A stretch of 64,000 nucleotides of DNA, taken from positions 6,324,001-6,388,000 of the forward strand of contig NZ_CP107819.1 in the NCBI RefSeq assembly GCF_036346295.1. Reading direction: 5' to 3'. Shown one piece after another: positions 1 to 8,776 of the stretch; within the stretch, counting starts at the first letter, position 1; each line of letters opens with the position of its first letter. Position numbers and translations under genes: made by a program. The notes under the pieces are model-generated. The model was not told the DNA's origin and searched no databases. It saw only the letters and a list, made by a program, of their open reading frames with translations. The stretch comes from Streptomyces sp. NBC_00536 (GTDB lineage Bacteria; Actinomycetota; Actinomycetes; Streptomycetales; Streptomycetaceae).

Positions 1-1619
1 ACGGGCAGGGCGCCGTCGCCCTCCATGGACACGTCGGGGGTGGCCCTGCGGGCCGGCTTGCCCGCGGCCGGGGCGGGGACGCGGCCGTGCTGGTACCACG
101 GCTCGGGGGAGTCGCCGAGCCCACCGCCGCCGCCGAAGGCGAAGACCCCGGGGACGGGGCCCCAGGCCCGCGCGGCGCCGGCGCCGGTGAGGACCGACAG
201 CTCGTCGCCCATGCTGGTCTCCCAGGCGTAGTCGCCGTGCTCGTCCAGGGCCAGGGTGGTGCCTCCGACGGAGGTCACCCAGGGCGAGCCGCTGGGGAAG
301 TCCGCCTGGGCCGCGGTGGTCTTCGCGTCGCAGTTGACTCCGGTCTCGGCCGCACCGGGAGAGGAATCGCCGCAGTCGCCAGCGGCGAAGTAGATGCCGA
401 TGCCTTCGGCGGCGGCCTGCTGGAACAGCAGGTTCCAGGCATTGACCAGGTCCGGCGTCAGATGTCCGGGCTCGGAATGGACGATCTCCGCCCAGGAGTT
501 GGAGACGGAGTCGGCCAGATGCCCGTCGATGACGGCGGCCTCGGCATCCATCAGGTCGTCGTCCAGGCAGGAGTTGGCGCCGACGTAGAGCACGTCGGCG
601 TCGGGCGCGAGGCCGTGGGCCATGTCCACGTCCAGGGCCTGCTCCCCGGCCCAGGACGCGGGCGGTGCGCAGGCGGGGCTCAGGTTCCAGTCCTTCGGCG
701 TGACCTGCTGGCGGTACTGGCCCAGGCGGAACGGCCGGTCGCCGGTCGCCTTGGCGAACCGGTCCGCGTCGGCGGGCATGGTGGGGGAGCCGTACGCGTC
801 CACGATGGCGATGGTGGCACCCTTGCCGGTCGCGCCGGCACCTCCCGCGCCGTAGGCCCGGCGGAGTTGCGCGGGGACGTACGGGCAGGGGGAGTAGGCC
901 GTCGTCCTGCCGTACGCGGGGGGCAGGTCTGCGGCGGGCTTCTGCCCGAAGTGGTCGGAGCAGACGGCGGGCGCACCGGTGGGGGCGTCGGCGGGCGTAC
1001 TGACGGGCCCGGTGGTGCGCGAGGACAGGGGGCGGACCGCCGCGGGCGCGGACAGTCCGGACACGGCGACGATGTCGGCGCCCAGGGCGCCCGGGACGCT
1101 CACGTCGCCGCTGGGAGCGCTGACCGTGCCCCGGGGGGTCCGGTAGCGGTGGACCGGGCTGCCGAGAGCCTGTTGTACGGCCTTCGCCGGGCCGGAGATC
1201 TCCAGGTAGTGCGGGGTGTCCCGGGTGACGGTGAGCCCGGCGCCGGTGAGCCAGCGGGCGAGGGCCCGGTGCTCTTGGGGGCTGAGGTCGAAACGCCGGC
1301 GGTACTGGTCGGGCGTCAGGAAGTGGCGGTAGGAGGGGCTGTGGGGGTCGCTGACGCCCTTGATGAATGCCGCCAGGCCGGCCGGGTCGCGGGAGTCGAG
1401 GTGCAAGCGCGCGGTGAGGCGTTCCTCGGCGGGGACCGGACCGGTGTCGGCCGAGGCGGTGGCGTAGCCGGGGTGCGAGCCGGGCAGGATGTGGCGCTGC
1501 TCGGCGGGGGAATCGGCGTGGGCGGCCGGTCCGGCGAGCGCGGTGCCCAGGAGCGCGGCGCAGACCGCGGCGGCGAGCGTGCGGGGCCGTATGCGGACGT
1601 GCGGGGACGACGGGGACAC
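1..1619 (-). CDS. Secreted S53 (sedolisin/kumamolisin-type) peptidase, C-terminus beyond the window edge
   Basis: The protein is read from a GTG at 1619, six bases after AGAAGGG; 539 residues are visible. A twin-Arg-free signal peptide (about residues 1-36, ending PAAHA) precedes a pro-kumamolisin propeptide with the typical SPSYRHFLTPDQYRRRF stretch. The mature domain starts near the YVPAQLRRAYG segment and contains the sedolisin Glu/Asp pair in EQALDVD (E326, D330) and the oxyanion Asp in FAAGDCG (D415). The catalytic Ser motif SGTS would lie beyond position 1 and is not visible. The family acts outside the cell as a pepstatin-insensitive acid endopeptidase. The gene lies 88 bases downstream of the M23 peptidase on the same strand, so it may be transcribed with the peptide unit, but that is inference. 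Family assignment is firm; the substrate is unknown. Confidence 0.88.
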   Translation of the reverse strand, partial: MSPSSPHVRIRPRTLAAAVCAALLGTALAGPAAHADSPAEQRHILPGSHPGYATASADTGPVPAEERLTARLHLDSRDPAGLAAFIKGVSDPHSPSYRHFLTPDQYRRRFDLSPQEHRALARWLTGAGLTVTRDTPHYLEISGPAKAVQQALGSPVHRYRTPRGTVSAPSGDVSVPGALGADIVAVSGLSAPAAVRPLSSRTTGPVSTPADAPTGAPAVCSDHFGQKPAADLPPAYGRTTAYSPCPYVPAQLRRAYGAGGAGATGKGATIAIVDAYGSPTMPADADRFAKATGDRPFRLGQYRQQVTPKDWNLSPACAPPASWAGEQALDVDMAHGLAPDADVLYVGANSCLDDDLMDAEAAVIDGHLADSVSNSWAEIVHSEPGHLTPDLVNAWNLLFQQAAAEGIGIYFAAGDCGDSSPGAAETGVNCDAKTTAAQADFPSGSPWVTSVGGTTLALDEHGDYAWETSMGDELSVLTGAGAARAWGPVPGVFAFGGGGGLGDSPEPWYQHGRVPAPAAGKPARRATPDVSMEGDGALP

Positions 1620-1707: not shown

Positions 1708-2892
1708 TCAGGTGCGCAGGACGCGCGCGCGGTGCAGCGTCCCGGAGATGCCGGTGAACCGGAGGTCGAGTCCGAGGCCGTCGCGTTCGGCGTGGATGTG
1801 CAGGTGCGGCTCGCTGGTGTTGCCGGAGTTGCCCACCTCGCCGAGCGGTTGACCGGCGCGCACCCGGTCGCCGACGGCCACCGTCACGCTGCCCGGTCGC
1901 AGATGCGCGAGTTTGACGACTTCACCGCCCGTGTCGATGAACACGTGGTTGCCGTACGGGGGTTCGTAGCGGATCGCGCCGGGCGTCTGGTCGGCGTAGT
2001 CGTCGGCGGCGGACACGACGTACCCGTCGCAGGGGGCGTACAGCCGCGCACCGTAGATCCGGTAGGCGTCCGGGGCGGAGCCCCCGTGGCGGCGGTCCCC
2101 CCGTGCTCCGATGGCGATGACGTCGAGCGCCCCGCGCTGTTCGGGCAGGGACAGGTGGTGGTTGAGGCCGCGGCCGCCGCCCTGGGCGATGAGCCAGGTC
2201 CCGTCGCGCAGCGGGAAGTGCAGGGGCGCGGACAGGGGCGCGCCCCAGCGGTGGCGGCGCGCCCGCATCAGGAACCAGGCGCAGCCCGCCACCAGGGCGA
2301 GGCCGCCCGCGAGCTCCGCGTCGGCCCGGCCCACGGGCAGGTGCGGCAGGCGCCAGGCGGAGGCGAGCGCGACGAGCGAGCCCGCCTCCAGGGCCCGGCG
2401 GATCCACCGGGGCAGCCGGGCCGGGGTGAAGAGCCCCTCCATGACCAGATAGGCGGCGCCCACGAGGAGTACGTCGGCGCACCAGGAGGTCACGGCCGGG
2501 GCGCTCCAGCACGCCGCGACCCGCAGCGACAGCAGCAGGCACCACACGGCCCAGCCCACGGCGCCGCGCACACCCGGCGGGACGCGCAGCCGGGCGGGCC
2601 GGTAGGGGCCGGGGGAGATGCGCAGGTGGGCGAGGTTCCCGTCGGCGTCCGCCCGGGCGAACGCGAGGGCCCGGCCGGCCGTTCCCCCGATCACCAGCCC
2701 GTCCGGGCCGTCGGTGACGCCGGTGAACTCGCCGGCGTGTTCCCGGGTCGCCGCGACGATCCCGCGCAGCCGCTCGTGGCCGACGGCGGCCACGACGCGC
2801 GGCGCCAGCCGTGGCCACTGTCCGGGGTCGGCGAGAAGGAACCGTTCGAGTGCGCGGGCCGCGTCGGCGTGCTCCGGGCCGGGATCAGGCAT
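1708..2892 (-). CDS. Membrane-anchored M23 (LytM-type) metallopeptidase
   Basis: This 394-residue protein has an uncharacterised N-terminal 100 residues, hydrophobic segments at about 110-128, 133-152 and 193-210, and a C-terminal M23 domain. The zinc-binding signature is visible as the variant first motif NHHLSLPEQRGALD (HH 245-246, D257) and as HLHIH at 363-367, with the family's GNSGNTSEP just before. M23 enzymes cut glycyl or D-alanyl bonds in peptidoglycan or secreted peptides on the outer face of the membrane. Its ATG lies inside the end of the HTTM gene (8-base overlap), so the two are probably translationally coupled. That places it functionally with the Sdp-like unit, perhaps trimming or releasing the peptide or opening the wall for it. 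The role is inferred; the family is clear. Confidence 0.85.
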   Translation of the reverse strand: MPDPGPEHADAARALERFLLADPGQWPRLAPRVVAAVGHERLRGIVAATREHAGEFTGVTDGPDGLVIGGTAGRALAFARADADGNLAHLRISPGPYRPARLRVPPGVRGAVGWAVWCLLLSLRVAACWSAPAVTSWCADVLLVGAAYLVMEGLFTPARLPRWIRRALEAGSLVALASAWRLPHLPVGRADAELAGGLALVAGCAWFLMRARRHRWGAPLSAPLHFPLRDGTWLIAQGGGRGLNHHLSLPEQRGALDVIAIGARGDRRHGGSAPDAYRIYGARLYAPCDGYVVSAADDYADQTPGAIRYEPPYGNHVFIDTGGEVVKLAHLRPGSVTVAVGDRVRAGQPLGEVGNSGNTSEPHLHIHAERDGLGLDLRFTGISGTLHRARVLRT

Positions 2893-3952
2893 CGGCGCCG
2901 CTGCCGTGGGTCTGGAGCAAGCTCACTGCCGGGTCCGAGACGGGTGCGGGCCCGGACGGCCCGGACGGCCCGGACGGCCCGGACGGCGCGGCCGCCCGGC
3001 CGCGCCGGACGAAGCGCGAAGCGAGGCCGCTGACACGGGTCTTGAGGGACAGGTAGTCCTCGTCGCGCAGGCAGGTGCAGTCCGCGCCGATCATCAGCAG
3101 GCCGAAGCACACCAGTCCCATGAGGGCCATGATGCCCAGGTGCATGCCTTCCAGCGCCAAGGCGTTGGCTTTCCGTACCCAGCCGCGGGCGGACAGGATC
3201 GCGAAGGGGAGGGCCAGCTCGATGAAGATGGTGAAGTAACTGACGGCGGTGGTGACGTACGCGTTGGTCATCAGGTGCGCGTAGGCCGGCCACACCTGAA
3301 AGCCCGTGAGCCGACTGATGTAGTACATGGCCACACCGTCCTGCCACATCTTCCCGGTGATCTTCCAGTACCCGGCCGCGAAATAGAGGACCGCCGTCTG
3401 GAAGACGATCAGATAGGCCGCCAGGTTGTGCAGGACCGTGGGCAGGGAAGGCCCCGTTTCCTTCTGGAACCGCTCACGGCGTCGTTTCGCGCCGGGTGCG
3501 AAATAGGCATTGGATACCGTGAACACCATGAAGATGATGAGGATCTGCGCGAGGTTGTCGCCGCCTTCGAGCACATCCTGGTTCCGGTTGTGCAAGGACC
3601 ACATGAGTACGGCCTGAAGCAGGGTGAGTGCCCTGCCGCCGTACACCATGTAGACGGCGGACATCAGGATGGTGCCGTGGAACACGATCTCGAACCATAC
3701 CGTGGAATGACTGAAGAAATAGAGGGAGAAACTCCCGTGGGACAGCGCGGCCTGCGCGGTCTCGATCGAGTTGTAGGAGTCGGGGCCCCACAGGAACCGC
3801 CGGTTTCCGTAGTCGGAGAGGCAGTACATGACGGTCGCGAGACCGATCACGATCCGCAGCAGCGCTATCCCGATCAGCCGGTGCTTGCGGCCCGCCAGTC
3901 GCAGCAGTCCGGCGTCGAGCCGGGCCATGCCGGACATCGCCCATGCGTGCAT
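2885..3952 (-). CDS. SdpB-like HTTM-domain membrane protein
   Basis: This 355-residue polytopic protein begins at an ATG overlapping the TGA of the upstream gene (TGATG), so it is translationally coupled. Its sequence matches the HTTM fold shared with vitamin K-dependent gamma-carboxylase and Bacillus SdpB: an N-terminal helix with IGIALLRIVIGLATVMY, a loop with GNRRFLWGPD, then several hydrophobic helices and a conserved AAGYWKITGKMWQDG segment. A Cys pair (ADCTCLRDEDYLSL) follows the last helix. In Bacillus, SdpB works with SdpA to mature the secreted toxin SdpC in the membrane. The C-terminal tail carries four Pro-Ser-Gly units from 9-base DNA repeats at 2951-2986. Function here is inferred from family and gene order; the enzymatic reaction of HTTM proteins is not settled. 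Confidence 0.8.
   Translation of the reverse strand: MHAWAMSGMARLDAGLLRLAGRKHRLIGIALLRIVIGLATVMYCLSDYGNRRFLWGPDSYNSIETAQAALSHGSFSLYFFSHSTVWFEIVFHGTILMSAVYMVYGGRALTLLQAVLMWSLHNRNQDVLEGGDNLAQILIIFMVFTVSNAYFAPGAKRRRERFQKETGPSLPTVLHNLAAYLIVFQTAVLYFAAGYWKITGKMWQDGVAMYYISRLTGFQVWPAYAHLMTNAYVTTAVSYFTIFIELALPFAILSARGWVRKANALALEGMHLGIMALMGLVCFGLLMIGADCTCLRDEDYLSLKTRVSGLASRFVRRGRAAAPSGPSGPSGPSGPAPVSDPAVSLLQTHGSGADA
2951..2986. repeat. Four tandem 9-base repeats inside the HTTM gene
   Basis: The unit CCCGGACGG occurs four times without interruption and encodes Pro-Ser-Gly repeats in the hydrophilic C-terminal tail. Copy number could vary by slippage without breaking the frame. Confidence 0.85.
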
Positions 3953-4668
3953 CAGCGGGCCACCCCCGGAACGTAGTCCATCCAGGAGGTCTCGAGAATG
4001 GACTTGACCGGCTGGTCGGGCTTTGGACTCGCATAGCGTTGGGAAAAGGGAACCATGGCCTTGTTCTTGAACGTGGCCTGAACCGAGACGATCCGCGCCT
4101 GCGGATACATCGAGTCGGCCTGGGTGGACAGGAACCGCTGGATCTCTTTGAATTCCGATGTGTACTGCTGGTCCAGGAGGTCCTGTGCCTGCTTGCGATC
4201 GGCCTCGGGGAGGTTCTTGAAGTTCGTCACCGCGGTGGCGTAGCGGTTGGCCGCCGCGTCGAAGGCCAGCGGCAGACCGGGGAGCTTCGTCGGGTTGAGC
4301 GGGAATTCGCGCGGGGTCCGGTCGATGGCGTCCTCGATTTCCACGGGACTCGTCTCCACGACGGCGTCCGACCCGGCGGGTTTCATGCGCACGGTCATGT
4401 AGATCAGGTCGTTGTTGCTGCCCGGGGTGGGTCCGAAGAGCTGCCAGTCCTGCCAGAAATAGGGCTGGAGGGCCTTGGTGGCCATGCCCTGCACGCGGGA
4501 TTTGACCGGCGAGTCGGGCGCGTTGTAGGCGAGGCAGGCGACCGTGTACAGCGCCACCGGCACCAGTGCCAGCGCGGTGCAGACGCGCAGTCGGGCCGTG
4601 ATCGCGCGCTCGGGCGCCGGTGCCGGGCCGCCACCGGTGCTCCTGGGGGCCCGCCCGAAGGCTTTCAT
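3952..4668 (-). CDS. DUF5819 / SdpA-like single-pass membrane protein
   Basis: The ATG at 4668 is eight bases after GGAGGTG, giving 238 residues. One transmembrane helix (about residues 28-48) is followed by the conserved motif FWQDWQLFGPTP at 71-82, then an extracytoplasmic domain. This W..F.P.P motif just after a helix is the hallmark of DUF5819 proteins and resembles the W-FF-P motif of Bacillus SdpA. The gene sits between the small secreted peptide and the HTTM protein, the same neighbourhood as sdpA-sdpB-sdpC. SdpA is soluble or membrane-associated and needed for SdpC maturation; an equivalent partner role is inferred here. Whether DUF5819 and SdpA are truly homologous cannot be decided by eye. 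Confidence 0.75.
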   Translation of the reverse strand: MKAFGRAPRSTGGGPAPAPERAITARLRVCTALALVPVALYTVACLAYNAPDSPVKSRVQGMATKALQPYFWQDWQLFGPTPGSNNDLIYMTVRMKPAGSDAVVETSPVEIEDAIDRTPREFPLNPTKLPGLPLAFDAAANRYATAVTNFKNLPEADRKQAQDLLDQQYTSEFKEIQRFLSTQADSMYPQARIVSVQATFKNKAMVPFSQRYASPKPDQPVKSILETSWMDYVPGVAR

Positions 4669-4770
4669 GGTGGGGACACCTCCGTTCCATGTCGGGGTTC
4701 TTGACGCGGTGAGGGTGCCCGACGGCGCGGGGGACGCCGCCGGGCACGTCTTCAGGTGGTGCCGTGCAGG

Positions 4771-4800
4771 GTGCCGGGCCCGGTGTGAAGGGCCCGGCAC
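4771..4800 (-). terminator. Intra-operon hairpin (attenuator-type) after the peptide gene
   Basis: A perfect 11-base-pair stem (GTGCCGGGCCC, 4771-4781; partner 4790-4800) with an 8-base loop starts seven bases after the peptide stop codon. It lies in the 138-base gap before the DUF5819 gene. It has no U-tract, as is usual in Streptomyces. Its position suggests that the peptide is transcribed at a higher level than the downstream genes. Confidence 0.6.
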
Positions 4801-4806
4801 ACCGGA

Positions 4807-5169
4807 TCAGTTGGCGTCGTACTGAACGTCGCCCGGGATGACCCCGTGCGCGCCCTTCGGGCTGATGGCGGGACCGCCGCTGGAGGAGGACGAGGACTCG
4901 CTGGACGAGGACCTGACCTTCGTCGTGACCTTCACGGCGGCCTCGGTGGCCTTGACCGCGGTGGCGGCGACCACGCTCTGGGCGACGGCGTGCCAGAACT
5001 GCGGCTGCACGCCGTCGTTGACTACGGTCGCGGTGGCGACGGACTGCTGCGCCGCCGCCTTCTGCACGGGCAGCGAGGTGGCCGACGCGCTGGCCGAGCC
5101 GAGGCCGACGGCCCCGGTCGCGGCAATGGCGGTGACGACGGCTCCTGCGATGAAACGCTTGGCGTTCAC
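4807..5169 (-). CDS. Small secreted peptide precursor of an Sdp-like unit
   Basis: The GTG at 5169 follows AGAAGG by eight bases and gives 120 residues; upstream in-frame starts have no ribosome site. A signal peptide is plain: MNAKRF, then a hydrophobic Ala/Val/Gly core, ending near ASASA (about residue 30). The mature part has a hydrophobic helical stretch from FWHAVAQSVV to about residue 86, rich in Ala and Val with spaced Lys, then a Ser-rich linker (SSSSESSSSSS) and a polar C-terminus ending DVQYDAN. It has no Cys. In Bacillus the hydrophobic core of SdpC is excised as the active toxin; here the 28-residue hydrophobic stretch is the equivalent candidate. It is first in a unit with SdpA-like and SdpB-like genes. 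The peptide itself matches nothing I recognise, so the toxin role is a hypothesis. Confidence 0.7.
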   Translation of the reverse strand: MNAKRFIAGAVVTAIAATGAVGLGSASASATSLPVQKAAAQQSVATATVVNDGVQPQFWHAVAQSVVAATAVKATEAAVKVTTKVRSSSSESSSSSSGGPAISPKGAHGVIPGDVQYDAN

Positions 5170-6079: not shown

Positions 6080-6877
6080 ATGAGAAGGATCGTGTATTTT
6101 CGCGTTCTTGGAGCACTTGCAGTAGAGACCGATGACGGGACGCCGCACACGCCGCAGGCGTTGAAACTCCGGACCCTGTTAGCCCTGTTGTGCCTGAACG
6201 ACGGCCGCCCGCTGTCCGCGGCGCAGCTCATCGACGGCCTCTGGTCGGGTACGCCGCCACGCACCGCGTCCACCGCGCTTCAGGTCTATGTTTCCCGGCT
6301 CCGCAAACATCTGGCGGGTGCGGGCTTCGGCGCTTCCGGGCTGCTGACCCGGCCGCCCGGTTACATGATGGAACTGGCCCCGCTCACCCTGGACCTCCAC
6401 AGATTCGAATCGCTGTGCCTGCGGGCCGCGGAGGCGCGGACGGCGGGCCGGCTGGAGGAGGCCTCGCGGCTGCTCTCCCAGGCGCTCGGGCTGTGGTCCG
6501 GCCCCGCCCTGGCGGACCTGCGCACCGTTCCGCTCCTGCAGAGCCTGGGCCACCAACTGGACGAGAAGCGGTCGGCGGCCCTGGAGGAACGGGCCGAGAC
6601 GGAACTGCTCCTGGGGCGGCACAAGCCGCTGATCGGCGAGCTCTACGGGCTGATCGACGAACAGCCGATGCGGGAGACCTTCCACGGTCTGCTGATGCTC
6701 GCGCTGTACCGCAGCGGCCGACCGGCCGAAGCCCTGATGATCTACAACCGCATCCGGCGCGTCCTCATCGACGAGATCGGCATCGAACCGGGCCCCAGAC
6801 TACGGCAGTTGCAGCAGTCGGTCCTGTCGCGGGACGCCGACCTCGAAGAGCACACCCTCGCCCACCTCGCCTGCTGA
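6080..6877 (+). CDS. SARP-family transcriptional activator
   Basis: This 265-residue protein has the Streptomyces antibiotic regulatory protein layout: an OmpR-like winged helix DNA-binding domain (about 1-95, with FRVLGALAVE and STALQVYVSRLRKHLAGAG) and a bacterial transcriptional activation domain (about 100-250, with LDLHRFE and EALMIYNRIRRVLIDEIGIEPG). It has no ATPase or TPR extension, so it is a short SARP like ActII-ORF4. SARPs bind direct repeats overlapping the -35 region and recruit RNA polymerase to biosynthetic promoters. It most likely activates the NRPS cluster downstream, and possibly the divergent peptide unit. The ATG at 6080 has GGGGG upstream; a GTG at 6092 is an alternative with a poorer site spacing. 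Confidence 0.9.
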   Translation: MRRIVYFRVLGALAVETDDGTPHTPQALKLRTLLALLCLNDGRPLSAAQLIDGLWSGTPPRTASTALQVYVSRLRKHLAGAGFGASGLLTRPPGYMMELAPLTLDLHRFESLCLRAAEARTAGRLEEASRLLSQALGLWSGPALADLRTVPLLQSLGHQLDEKRSAALEERAETELLLGRHKPLIGELYGLIDEQPMRETFHGLLMLALYRSGRPAEALMIYNRIRRVLIDEIGIEPGPRLRQLQQSVLSRDADLEEHTLAHLAC

Positions 6878-6964: not shown

Positions 6965-8776
6965 TCACGCCCGCGCCCGCTTCCGGCCCCACTTCGGCAG
7001 GCCGAGGGTGAGGAAGGCCTCCGCCTGCAACGCCGCGAGCCCGATCCGCGGCAGATCGCGGGTGTGCGGGAAGACCAGGAACCGCGGCACCCACTCCGGC
7101 TGGAACTTCGCGTTGAACTTGTACAGCGACTCGATCTGGAACCAGCGCGAGAGCAACACGAGCAGCCCCCGCCAGGCCCGCAACACCGGTCCCGCGCCGA
7201 GCCGTTCACCCCGGGCCAGGGCCGAGCGGAACATCGCGAAGTTGAGCGAGACCCGGCGTATGCCGAGCGCGGGCGCCGCTTGCAGGACGGCGACGATCAG
7301 CAGCTCGTTGAGGCCGGGGTCGGCGGCGCGGTCCCGGCGCATCAGTTCCAGTGAGATCCCCTCGGGGCCCCACGGCACGAAGTGCAGCACGGCCGCGAGG
7401 TCGTCGGTGTCAGCCGCCCCGCCGGTCCCGCCCTCTTCACCGTCCGGGGACCTGTGCGCGGTGACCACCACACAGCCGGTGTCCCGCGCGTCACCGAAGC
7501 GGCCAAGAGCGGTGGAGAACCCCCGCTCGATGTCGGTGCCGCGCCAGCGGGCCGAGGCGTCCGCGATCCGCGCCCGCTCCGCTTCGTCGAGGTCGCAGAC
7601 CCGGCGGACCTGGCAGAAATAGCCGGCCCGTTCGACGCGTTTGACCATCTGGCGCACATTGCGCATGGCCCGCCCGCTCAGCGAGAAGTCGGCCGTGTGC
7701 ACGACCGCCTCGTCACCCAACTCCAGGGCGTCCATGCCCGTTTCGCGCGTCCACACCTCGCCGCCCGTCTCGCCGCACCCGATCACCGCGGGCACCCAGG
7801 CGTGCCGCCCGGCCTCGTCCATGAACGCCTTGACCGCCCCGGGCCAGGCCTCGACGTCGCCGATGGGGTCGCCGGAGGCGAGCATCACACCCGACTCGAC
7901 GCGGTAGGCGATGGCGGCCTTGCCGGTCGGCGAGAACAGCACGCTCTTGTCGCGCCGCAGCGCGAAGTACCCCAGCGAGTCGCGCGCCCCGTGCCGCTCC
8001 AGCAGCCGACGCACCCGCGCCTCGTCCTCGGCGGAGAGCTCCGCCAACGGCTTCTCGGGCCGCAGGAACAGGTAGGAGGTGGTCAGCAGCGTGATCAGAC
8101 CGAGCGCGCCGAGCGAGTAGCCGACCAGATCCCCGACCCGGTCCGAGGTGTAGCGCACCGGCCCCTCGACCCCGACGAGCCCGTACGCGGTGTGCCGCAG
8201 TCGCTCTGCCAGGGAGGGCGAGCCGGCCTCGTAGTGCGGGTGCACGTTGGTGATCAGCAGCCCCAGGATGAGGGATGCGCCTCCCACCGCGAGGAAGTTC
8301 AGCAGTGCCCGCCAGCGGGTCCGCGGGTCGGACAGCGCGTAGAACTCCCGTCGGTACAGCAGCATGACGAGGAGCAGCGCGAACGACAGCATGCCGGCGG
8401 CCGTGGTGTGCCAACGCAGCAAGTGCAGCAGCCCGCCCACCGGCAGCAGCACCACCACCGCGCGCCAGGCGCGCCGCTTGCGGCGACGCAGCGCATGCGC
8501 CAGCAGCATGAGCAGCACGCCCACCATCAGTGAGCCGACCGCGGCCACCGTGGTGGTCCCGCCGGGCAGTTGACCGGCAAGCAGGCGCACCCGGTTGTGG
8601 CGGAAGCCCGGGAAGACGGCCGCCGCGAGGTCGATCAGCCCGATCAGCAGACAGGCGTACGCGGCGAGGGCGGGAACGCGCGGCCGGGACGCGGGGGTCG
8701 CCCGGTCACGGAGCGTGCGCGGCGCCGGGCGACGGCTCGTGGCCGAACCCGGGTGCGGGGGTGCTGGAATGTCCAT
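6965..8776 (-). CDS. MprF-like phosphatidylglycerol lysyltransferase (DUF2156) membrane protein
   Basis: The 603-residue protein has about six to seven N-terminal transmembrane helices (residues about 35-250, for example LIGLIDLAAAVFPG and LLMLLAHALRR), then a cytoplasmic DUF2156 domain with the dual GNAT fold of MprF/LysX. The segments FSPTGKAAIAYRVESGVMLA and LNELLIVAVLQAAPALG, and the terminal YKFNAKFQPEWVPRFLVF, are typical of the family. Such enzymes move an aminoacyl group from tRNA to phosphatidylglycerol, making the membrane less negative and more resistant to cationic peptides. It is convergent with the SARP and divergent from the NRPS, so it sits inside the cluster but on the other strand. 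A self-protection role is possible; a housekeeping role is equally possible. Streptomyces genomes often carry several such genes. Confidence 0.85.
   Translation of the reverse strand: MDIPAPPHPGSATSRRPAPRTLRDRATPASRPRVPALAAYACLLIGLIDLAAAVFPGFRHNRVRLLAGQLPGGTTTVAAVGSLMVGVLLMLLAHALRRRKRRAWRAVVVLLPVGGLLHLLRWHTTAAGMLSFALLLVMLLYRREFYALSDPRTRWRALLNFLAVGGASLILGLLITNVHPHYEAGSPSLAERLRHTAYGLVGVEGPVRYTSDRVGDLVGYSLGALGLITLLTTSYLFLRPEKPLAELSAEDEARVRRLLERHGARDSLGYFALRRDKSVLFSPTGKAAIAYRVESGVMLASGDPIGDVEAWPGAVKAFMDEAGRHAWVPAVIGCGETGGEVWTRETGMDALELGDEAVVHTADFSLSGRAMRNVRQMVKRVERAGYFCQVRRVCDLDEAERARIADASARWRGTDIERGFSTALGRFGDARDTGCVVVTAHRSPDGEEGGTGGAADTDDLAAVLHFVPWGPEGISLELMRRDRAADPGLNELLIVAVLQAAPALGIRRVSLNFAMFRSALARGERLGAGPVLRAWRGLLVLLSRWFQIESLYKFNAKFQPEWVPRFLVFPHTRDLPRIGLAALQAEAFLTLGLPKWGRKRARA

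Follow-up and report, generated by a model that had tools for sequence, protein, structure and literature searches.

The window analysed here, a stretch of 64,000 nucleotides (nt) from Streptomyces sp. NBC_00536 (NZ_CP107819.1, positions 6,324,001 to 6,388,000), carries on its reverse strand an operon whose anatomy is rather probably that of a maturation unit for an exported, ribosomally made peptide, with a DUF5819–HTTM protein pair which sequence comparison suggests to be of the SdpAB/LinHL type. The original prediction had described three genes on one strand, and these were recovered: the type I precursor gene for a signal-peptide protein of 120 amino acids (aa; 4807..5169, GTG start), the gene of a DUF5819 protein as SdpA/LinL-type partner (3952..4668, 238 aa, one N-terminal transmembrane (TM) helix), and that of an SdpB/LinH/GGCX-like HTTM membrane protein (2885..3952, 355 aa). 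Translational coupling of the last two genes is plausible, as had been proposed, since the DUF5819 stop codon (TGA, 3954–3952) and the HTTM start codon (ATG, 3952–3950) share one base. The unit does not end there, however. It continues on the same strand with the gene of a protein that has hydrophobic segments and, at its C-terminus, a Peptidase_M23 domain (1708..2892, HxxxD and HxH motifs present; 8-base overlap with the HTTM gene), with a gene for a pro-kumamolisin/subtilase-like secreted protease of 668 aa (1..1619; truncated by the window edge, complete in L163, L-numbers denoting genome stretches fetched for comparison), and, beyond the window edge, with a gene for a flavin adenine dinucleotide (FAD) oxidoreductase that overlaps the protease gene by 4 bases.

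The precursor has a signal-peptide-like N-terminus with a hydrophobic segment at residues 6–24, followed by a PQFWHAVAQ region, a Ser tract (SSSSESSSSSSGGP, 4870..4911) and the C-terminal end QYDAN (4810..4824). As anticipated for a peptide of no known family, it had no Pfam or NCBIfam match near cut-off. Since its 17 homologues (E 1.9e-56 to 1.1e-14) share a conserved mature part, we regard it as a real gene; homologues of named source belong to Streptomyces and Kitasatospora, and genome loci add Streptacidiphilus. Across the 18 aligned rows, LP, PQ and S6-GGP stay constant against a variable signal region. At the DNA level S6-GGP is invariant in the genes of all ten type I loci (the window, contained in L163, together with L062–L069 and L148), and the mixed Ser codons indicate that the tract is conserved as protein and not as a DNA repeat. 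All ten peptides have [FY][DN] within their final five residues, followed by two or three residues. Due to the modest hydrophobic moments of the window peptide (best 0.36) we claim no strongly amphipathic helix. Strong type I matches stood beside the pair wherever they were examined, including the two outside the window's genome (L090, L091, with DUF5819 and HTTM), in line with the expectation that the peptide is not conserved in an unrelated context. The weak partial matches L092 and L093 are without DUF5819 and HTTM.

The order peptide, DUF5819, HTTM, M23, protease is kept in 8/8 fetched genome relatives, which span Streptomyces, Streptacidiphilus and Kitasatospora. Homologues of the M23 and protease genes occur at all ten type I loci and the FAD gene at seven, while a DCC1-like gene is inserted between HTTM and M23 in L064 and L069 (Pfam-tested for L064). 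Between the peptide and DUF5819 genes of the type I loci lies a gap of 125–386 nt containing an inverted repeat, in the window with a 14-bp stem (4768..4803, reverse strand). A stem of 12–16 bp is found in this gap at 10/10 loci, its sequence differing between loci; the stem length was reached by at most 1/60 shuffles in eight of them, by 4/60 in L063 and by 10/60 in L148, the shuffles being dinucleotide ones that possibly fell back to single-base shuffling if the walk failed. Since such a gap separates them, peptide and pair may be separately transcribed, and one could hold that they are merely neighbours without a functional link, M23 and protease acting on other targets. We consider this very unlikely: the constant order across three genera speaks against it, as do two further peptide types, II and III, which fill the same slot and in some loci overlap the DUF5819 gene (L136, L145).

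For the HTTM protein, Pfam gives no HTTM call, the best match being a lipase maturation factor at 19.9 bits, under its cut-off; the label is used because the protein aligns to GGCX and SdpB. DUF5819, one of the two families originally recognised by motif, was confirmed at profile level (PF19136, 70.8 bits over a gathering cut-off of 27.1). The predicted resemblance to SdpB was borne out by model TIGR04033 (52.5 bits, E 5.2e-14), though its cut-off of 178.4 was not reached. Against the PDB the HTTM alignment finds human GGCX (E 3.8e-15). In Foldseek the structure model (pLDDT, the predicted local distance difference test, 88.6) matches GGCX with prob 1.00 and a TM-score of ~0.5 by query, among others a complex with menaquinone-4 epoxide and the double mutants K217A/K218A. 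K197 of the window protein falls on GGCX K218, as counted from the printed alignment, and the lysine aligned with K218 is invariant in 36/36 HTTM rows. K218 is the catalytic base of GGCX. As modelled, the HTTM protein folds like human vitamin K carboxylase, with the K218-aligned lysine retained; it corresponds to the membrane domain of GGCX only.

These features bear on the idea that HTTM and DUF5819 form a dedicated peptide exporter and not an enzyme. In its favour, the NCBIfam SdpA and SdpB models carry "export" in their names and SdpAB is termed an exporter family in a passage of PMC3924187. The precursor has its own signal-peptide-like start, however, and the HTTM protein shows the GGCX enzyme fold with its invariant lysine, so that we hold an exporter to be quite improbable. 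Strict gamma-carboxylation of the Ser-tract Glu is likewise unlikely, since this residue is Asp in 3/10 type I genes.

The DUF5819 protein was predicted to be SdpA-like. The SdpA models PF17418 and TIGR04034 gave no match to the window protein up to E 1, but at family level hhalign aligned DUF5819 and SdpA with 88% and 93% in the two directions (83% once the window clade is removed; DUF5819 versus HTTM as control, 0.5%), the aligned part being the TM helix and the Q-x-W-x-x-F motif. Scores were higher for the small LinL-like protein found in linaridin clusters: LinL-like versus DUF5819 reached 97.7% (E 1.3e-12) and again 97.7% with 51 LinL-like rows, and PF19136 is carried by 32 of the 63 listed homologues of the L154 LinL-like protein. 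LinL-like versus SdpA gave only 0.9%, or 1.3% with 51 rows, and therefore SdpA and LinL are joined through DUF5819 only. At profile level DUF5819 thus appears tied weakly to SdpA and more strongly to LinL.

With SdpABC and YitPOM the window shares a signal-peptide precursor, a one-TM protein with Q-x-W-x-x-F, and an SdpB-like HTTM protein. The proposed sdp gene logic finds support in another Streptomyces: the order peptide-A-B equals the sdpC-sdpA-sdpB order of L078, which has a true SdpB and an SdpC-like gene at 92.5 bits (cut-off 99.2). YitPOM acts together with the extracellular protease NprB according to a passage of PMC6818787. Nevertheless, the window operon is not an Sdp system proper. 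Its precursor does not match the SdpC model TIGR04032 up to E 1, its DUF5819 protein is not called SdpA, its HTTM protein stays far under the SdpB cut-off, and it has additional M23, protease and FAD genes. From the Sdp reading as a whole the SdpB likeness and the gene order remain; what it missed are the protease and FAD genes, the wider secreted neighbours of such pairs and the stronger link to linaridin LinL and LinH.

This link emerged from the weakest DUF5819 places (<41 bits), eight among the matches listed, six of which were fetched (L149–L154; G512 and G599 left out). All six are linaridin or linaridin-like clusters. At L154 the precursor scores 99.4 bits with the cypemycin family model (cut-off 35); next come an HTTM-alpha/beta hydrolase fusion, a DUF5819-like protein, a flavoprotein and a methyltransferase-like gene. 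In L151–L153 there are several short precursors, which share a motif of APVMATPA type, and one weak CypA match (E 0.0045), and L149 and L150, with no CypA-type match where scanned, are linaridin-like by gene set. The putative precursors of L149 and L150 are Gly/Ala-rich and nearly Thr-free, and their neighbours comprise an HTTM(-hydrolase) protein, a DUF5819-like protein, a tiny TM open reading frame, an ATP-binding cassette (ABC) transporter and an FAD oxidoreductase. In L149–L154 the names LinL and LinH rest on context and not on published GrmL/CypL sequences, and the HTTM label on our own profile (72.8–81.8 bits; Pfam HTTM at best E 0.0074, in L151). LinH-like proteins versus HTTM reached 98.8% in hhalign, with cross controls <1%.

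For the FAD oxidoreductase of the window operon, identity is 68% with the L150 enzyme, 65% with the L149 enzyme and ~46–48% with those of types II/III. By tblastn in 70 stretches >6 kb the FAD gene was found in 14/27 stretches of the peptide clades (counting L141 and L147, where no peptide was found), in 5/6 linaridin-like ones (not L154) and in 0/37 others. Counted from called genes the figures are 14/27 versus 0/26 (Fisher 1.2e-5), a p value that is indicative only, since the loci are related and their flanks differ. According to PMC9927463, LinL is a marker of linaridin clusters, and what the HTTM protein and the alpha/beta hydrolase do in them is unclear; in corynaridin all 8 Thr/Ser are dehydrated, as stated in the linaridin literature. 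An excerpt of PMC10373908 describes grmL as indispensable and potentially a peptide epimerase gene, and linaridins and SDP loci are treated as separate groups in part of one paper (PMC5719810). In the searched literature, which excluded most subscription papers, no further paper joined linaridin with an Sdp term, and the term DUF5819 was absent.

The window operon is still no linaridin cluster. Its precursor looks Sec-exported and, like the six type II/III peptides scanned and the L075 peptide, has no match to the CypA/LinA-type model NF033752. No ABC transporter, methyltransferase or decarboxylase is among the window operon genes read, and M23 and kumamolisin-type hydrolases stand in place of the alpha/beta hydrolase. 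Common to both are an aligning HTTM partner and, in L149–L153, the same FAD oxidoreductase family; at family level, the LinL-like proteins also match DUF5819.

Type II peptides (5 loci) end in [AS]FD and type III peptides (10 loci) in FD[KR]. Among 789 called genes only 13 end in FD plus at most one Lys or Arg, and 11 of them are these peptides; calls outside annotated families came from a simple codon-bias caller, which missed DUF5819 in L067, L125, L135, L140, L141, L142 and L146 (recovered by six-frame search). Neither the six type II/III peptides scanned nor the L075 peptide belongs to a Pfam or NCBIfam family. In 199 Streptomyces genomes all strong matches, 4/4 for type II and 8/8 for type III, lie beside DUF5819 and HTTM, although 8/12 are in genomes that supplied profile rows. 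Since all 12 loci had first been met via DUF5819, the new information from the profile search is the absence of strong matches in other places. Next to the weak partial type III matches L172 and L173 neither DUF5819 nor HTTM adjoins. By hhalign types II and III align with 82%, types I and II with 44% and types I and III with 51%, so that a single peptide family is unproven for type I. A PF00144 beta-lactamase-family serine hydrolase (Pfam-tested in L131, L138 and L144) replaces M23 and protease at L127, L128, L130, L131, L136–L138, L140, L141, L144, L145, L147 and L075.

The pair itself is widespread. In a phylum sample of 396 genomes DUF5819 occurs at 27 places in 20 genomes, with an HTTM gene within the 1.5-kb flanks of 27/27, and it is present in 291/295 Streptomyces genomes, where HTTM adjacency was examined for 17 places in 12 genomes from the phylum sample and for the later stretches. 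Copies other than the core one were read in 20 stretches and 40 further stretches. Upstream stand ice-binding proteins (PF11999) with long low-complexity tails, immediately next to the pair, in L070, L071, L155, L157–L159, L161 and L162, all Streptomyces, choice-of-anchor G and other LPXTG-like proteins in L073, L074, L076 and L077, and a protein with a collagen-like repeat in L072. Of the 47 places at 168–195 bits eight were fetched (L155–L162): six have ice-binding neighbours, L160 another secreted-looking protein and L156 a divergent gene. Mapped on a 54-row DUF5819 tree, the classes of neighbour require 12 changes (minimum 11, shuffled mean 38.1), the tree coming from a short search with Shimodaira–Hasegawa-like approximate likelihood ratio test (SH-aLRT) support only and kinship by itself clustering the labels. 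Both L073 pairs were labelled LPXTG-like, though the upstream gene of the second is on the opposite strand, and the labels of L074, L076 and L077 come from C-terminal sequence inspected by eye. The window's DUF5819 clade is separate with full support. Judged from these sequences, every DUF5819 clade has retained a characteristic class of neighbour.

The ice-binding (8 loci) and LPXTG-like neighbours of other pairs would suit a cell-envelope or developmental unit, in which the pair would process the 120-aa product as a structural or matrix peptide, with the Ser tract as linker and no antimicrobial role. Types I–III are small and without anchors, however, and the FAD oxidoreductase common to the peptide clades and the linaridin-like clusters is absent from the other 37 stretches, including the ice-binding and LPXTG-like loci. 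We therefore judge a structural peptide rather unlikely.

Several observations weigh against a peptide-maturation operon. Type I is rare: among 392 Streptomyces genomes it has three strong matches, one of them in the window's own genome. Taken by itself, the window's DUF5819 clade reaches 3% with SdpA and 28.9% with LinL-like proteins in hhalign, and therefore both links run through the rest of the DUF5819 family; the predicted SdpA likeness is seen at family level. The DUF5819 model (pLDDT 85.5) had no Foldseek match among solved structures at E <= 0.001, and a second structure comparison gave low Z only (best 5.3); a new fold was not adopted despite the absent Foldseek match. The scan of the operon genes recognised no immunity gene, SdpI-type ones included, and no SdpR-type repressor, with no search aimed at SdpI made. 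Finally, no small secreted peptide adjoins the core pair in the three loci read (L007 at ~4.12 Mb of the own genome, L080, L081), which are flanked by paa-like genes (phenylacetate degradation, read by eye without family search) and rRNA (ribosomal RNA) methyltransferase-like genes. Seventy multi-copy Streptomyces genomes provided 26 accessory DUF5819 places (68–141 bits), all fetched as L123–L148. A small peptide was found at 15 of them (type I at 1, type II at 5, type III at 9) and was absent at L123, L124, L126, L129, L132, L133, L134, L141, L143, L146 and L147. Many DUF5819–HTTM pairs thus lack a small peptide, an outcome that the original prediction had itself named as speaking against it, and the idea of a small peptide beside every pair is rejected.

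One gene of the core loci ends in FD and is not a small peptide. In L146 DUF5819 is split in two pieces near a transposase-like gene. Q9XA27 of S. coelicolor, a distant SdpAB-family member in a passage of PMC3924187, is probably, from its size, the Streptomyces core HTTM protein. The core pairs belong to the same families as the window pair, but those read lack an adjoining peptide gene, and no substrate was recognised there.

For the maturation operon that we favour, the following sequence of events is conceivable. The precursor would leave the cell by Sec, and DUF5819 may hold it on the outside of the membrane and present it to HTTM. HTTM would then alter the precursor or ready it for cleavage, by analogy to SdpA and SdpB, which are needed for the conversion of SdpC to SDP; LinL and LinH, thought to act on linaridins, offer a second model for this step. 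The M23 and kumamolisin-type peptidases could trim the precursor or protect the producer, and the hairpin might let the precursor transcript outnumber the enzyme transcript. The central region and the Ser tract would probably yield the product, a membrane-active peptide that serves as an antimicrobial or a signal. More tentatively, and as a possibility well short of an even chance, SdpAB, linaridin LinHL and DUF5819–HTTM could be branches of one membrane peptide-modifying family on the GGCX-type quinone-linked fold. The window would represent a Sec-exported branch, in which the pair and the FAD oxidoreductase do alpha-carbon chemistry outside the cytoplasm, be it epimerisation or Ser dehydration, e.g. 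in the invariant Ser tract, and the C-terminal Phe/Tyr-Asp end might be a recognition tag.

Outside the operon, a 603-aa membrane protein is encoded ~1.8 kb upstream of the peptide gene (6965–8776, reverse strand); without a family search, it seems to resemble a lysyl-phosphatidylglycerol synthetase (MprF-like). MprF proteins confer resistance to cationic peptides. The gene at 6080–6877 on the forward strand, divergent from the peptide operon, is presumably a Streptomyces antibiotic regulatory protein (SARP)/BTAD-type regulator, by its pattern and likewise without a family search.

The operon suggests a single enzyme family at work in the maturation of exported peptides of several kinds. A common family for SdpAB, LinHL and DUF5819–HTTM, together with the solved GGCX structures, would yield a testable enzyme hypothesis, for which the window operon, with its secreted substrate, is a compact test case. 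The three small peptide families without Pfam or NCBIfam entry are candidate antimicrobials or signals. For the DUF5819 family, found in nearly all Streptomyces sampled, a likely role would be the maturing of exported proteins.

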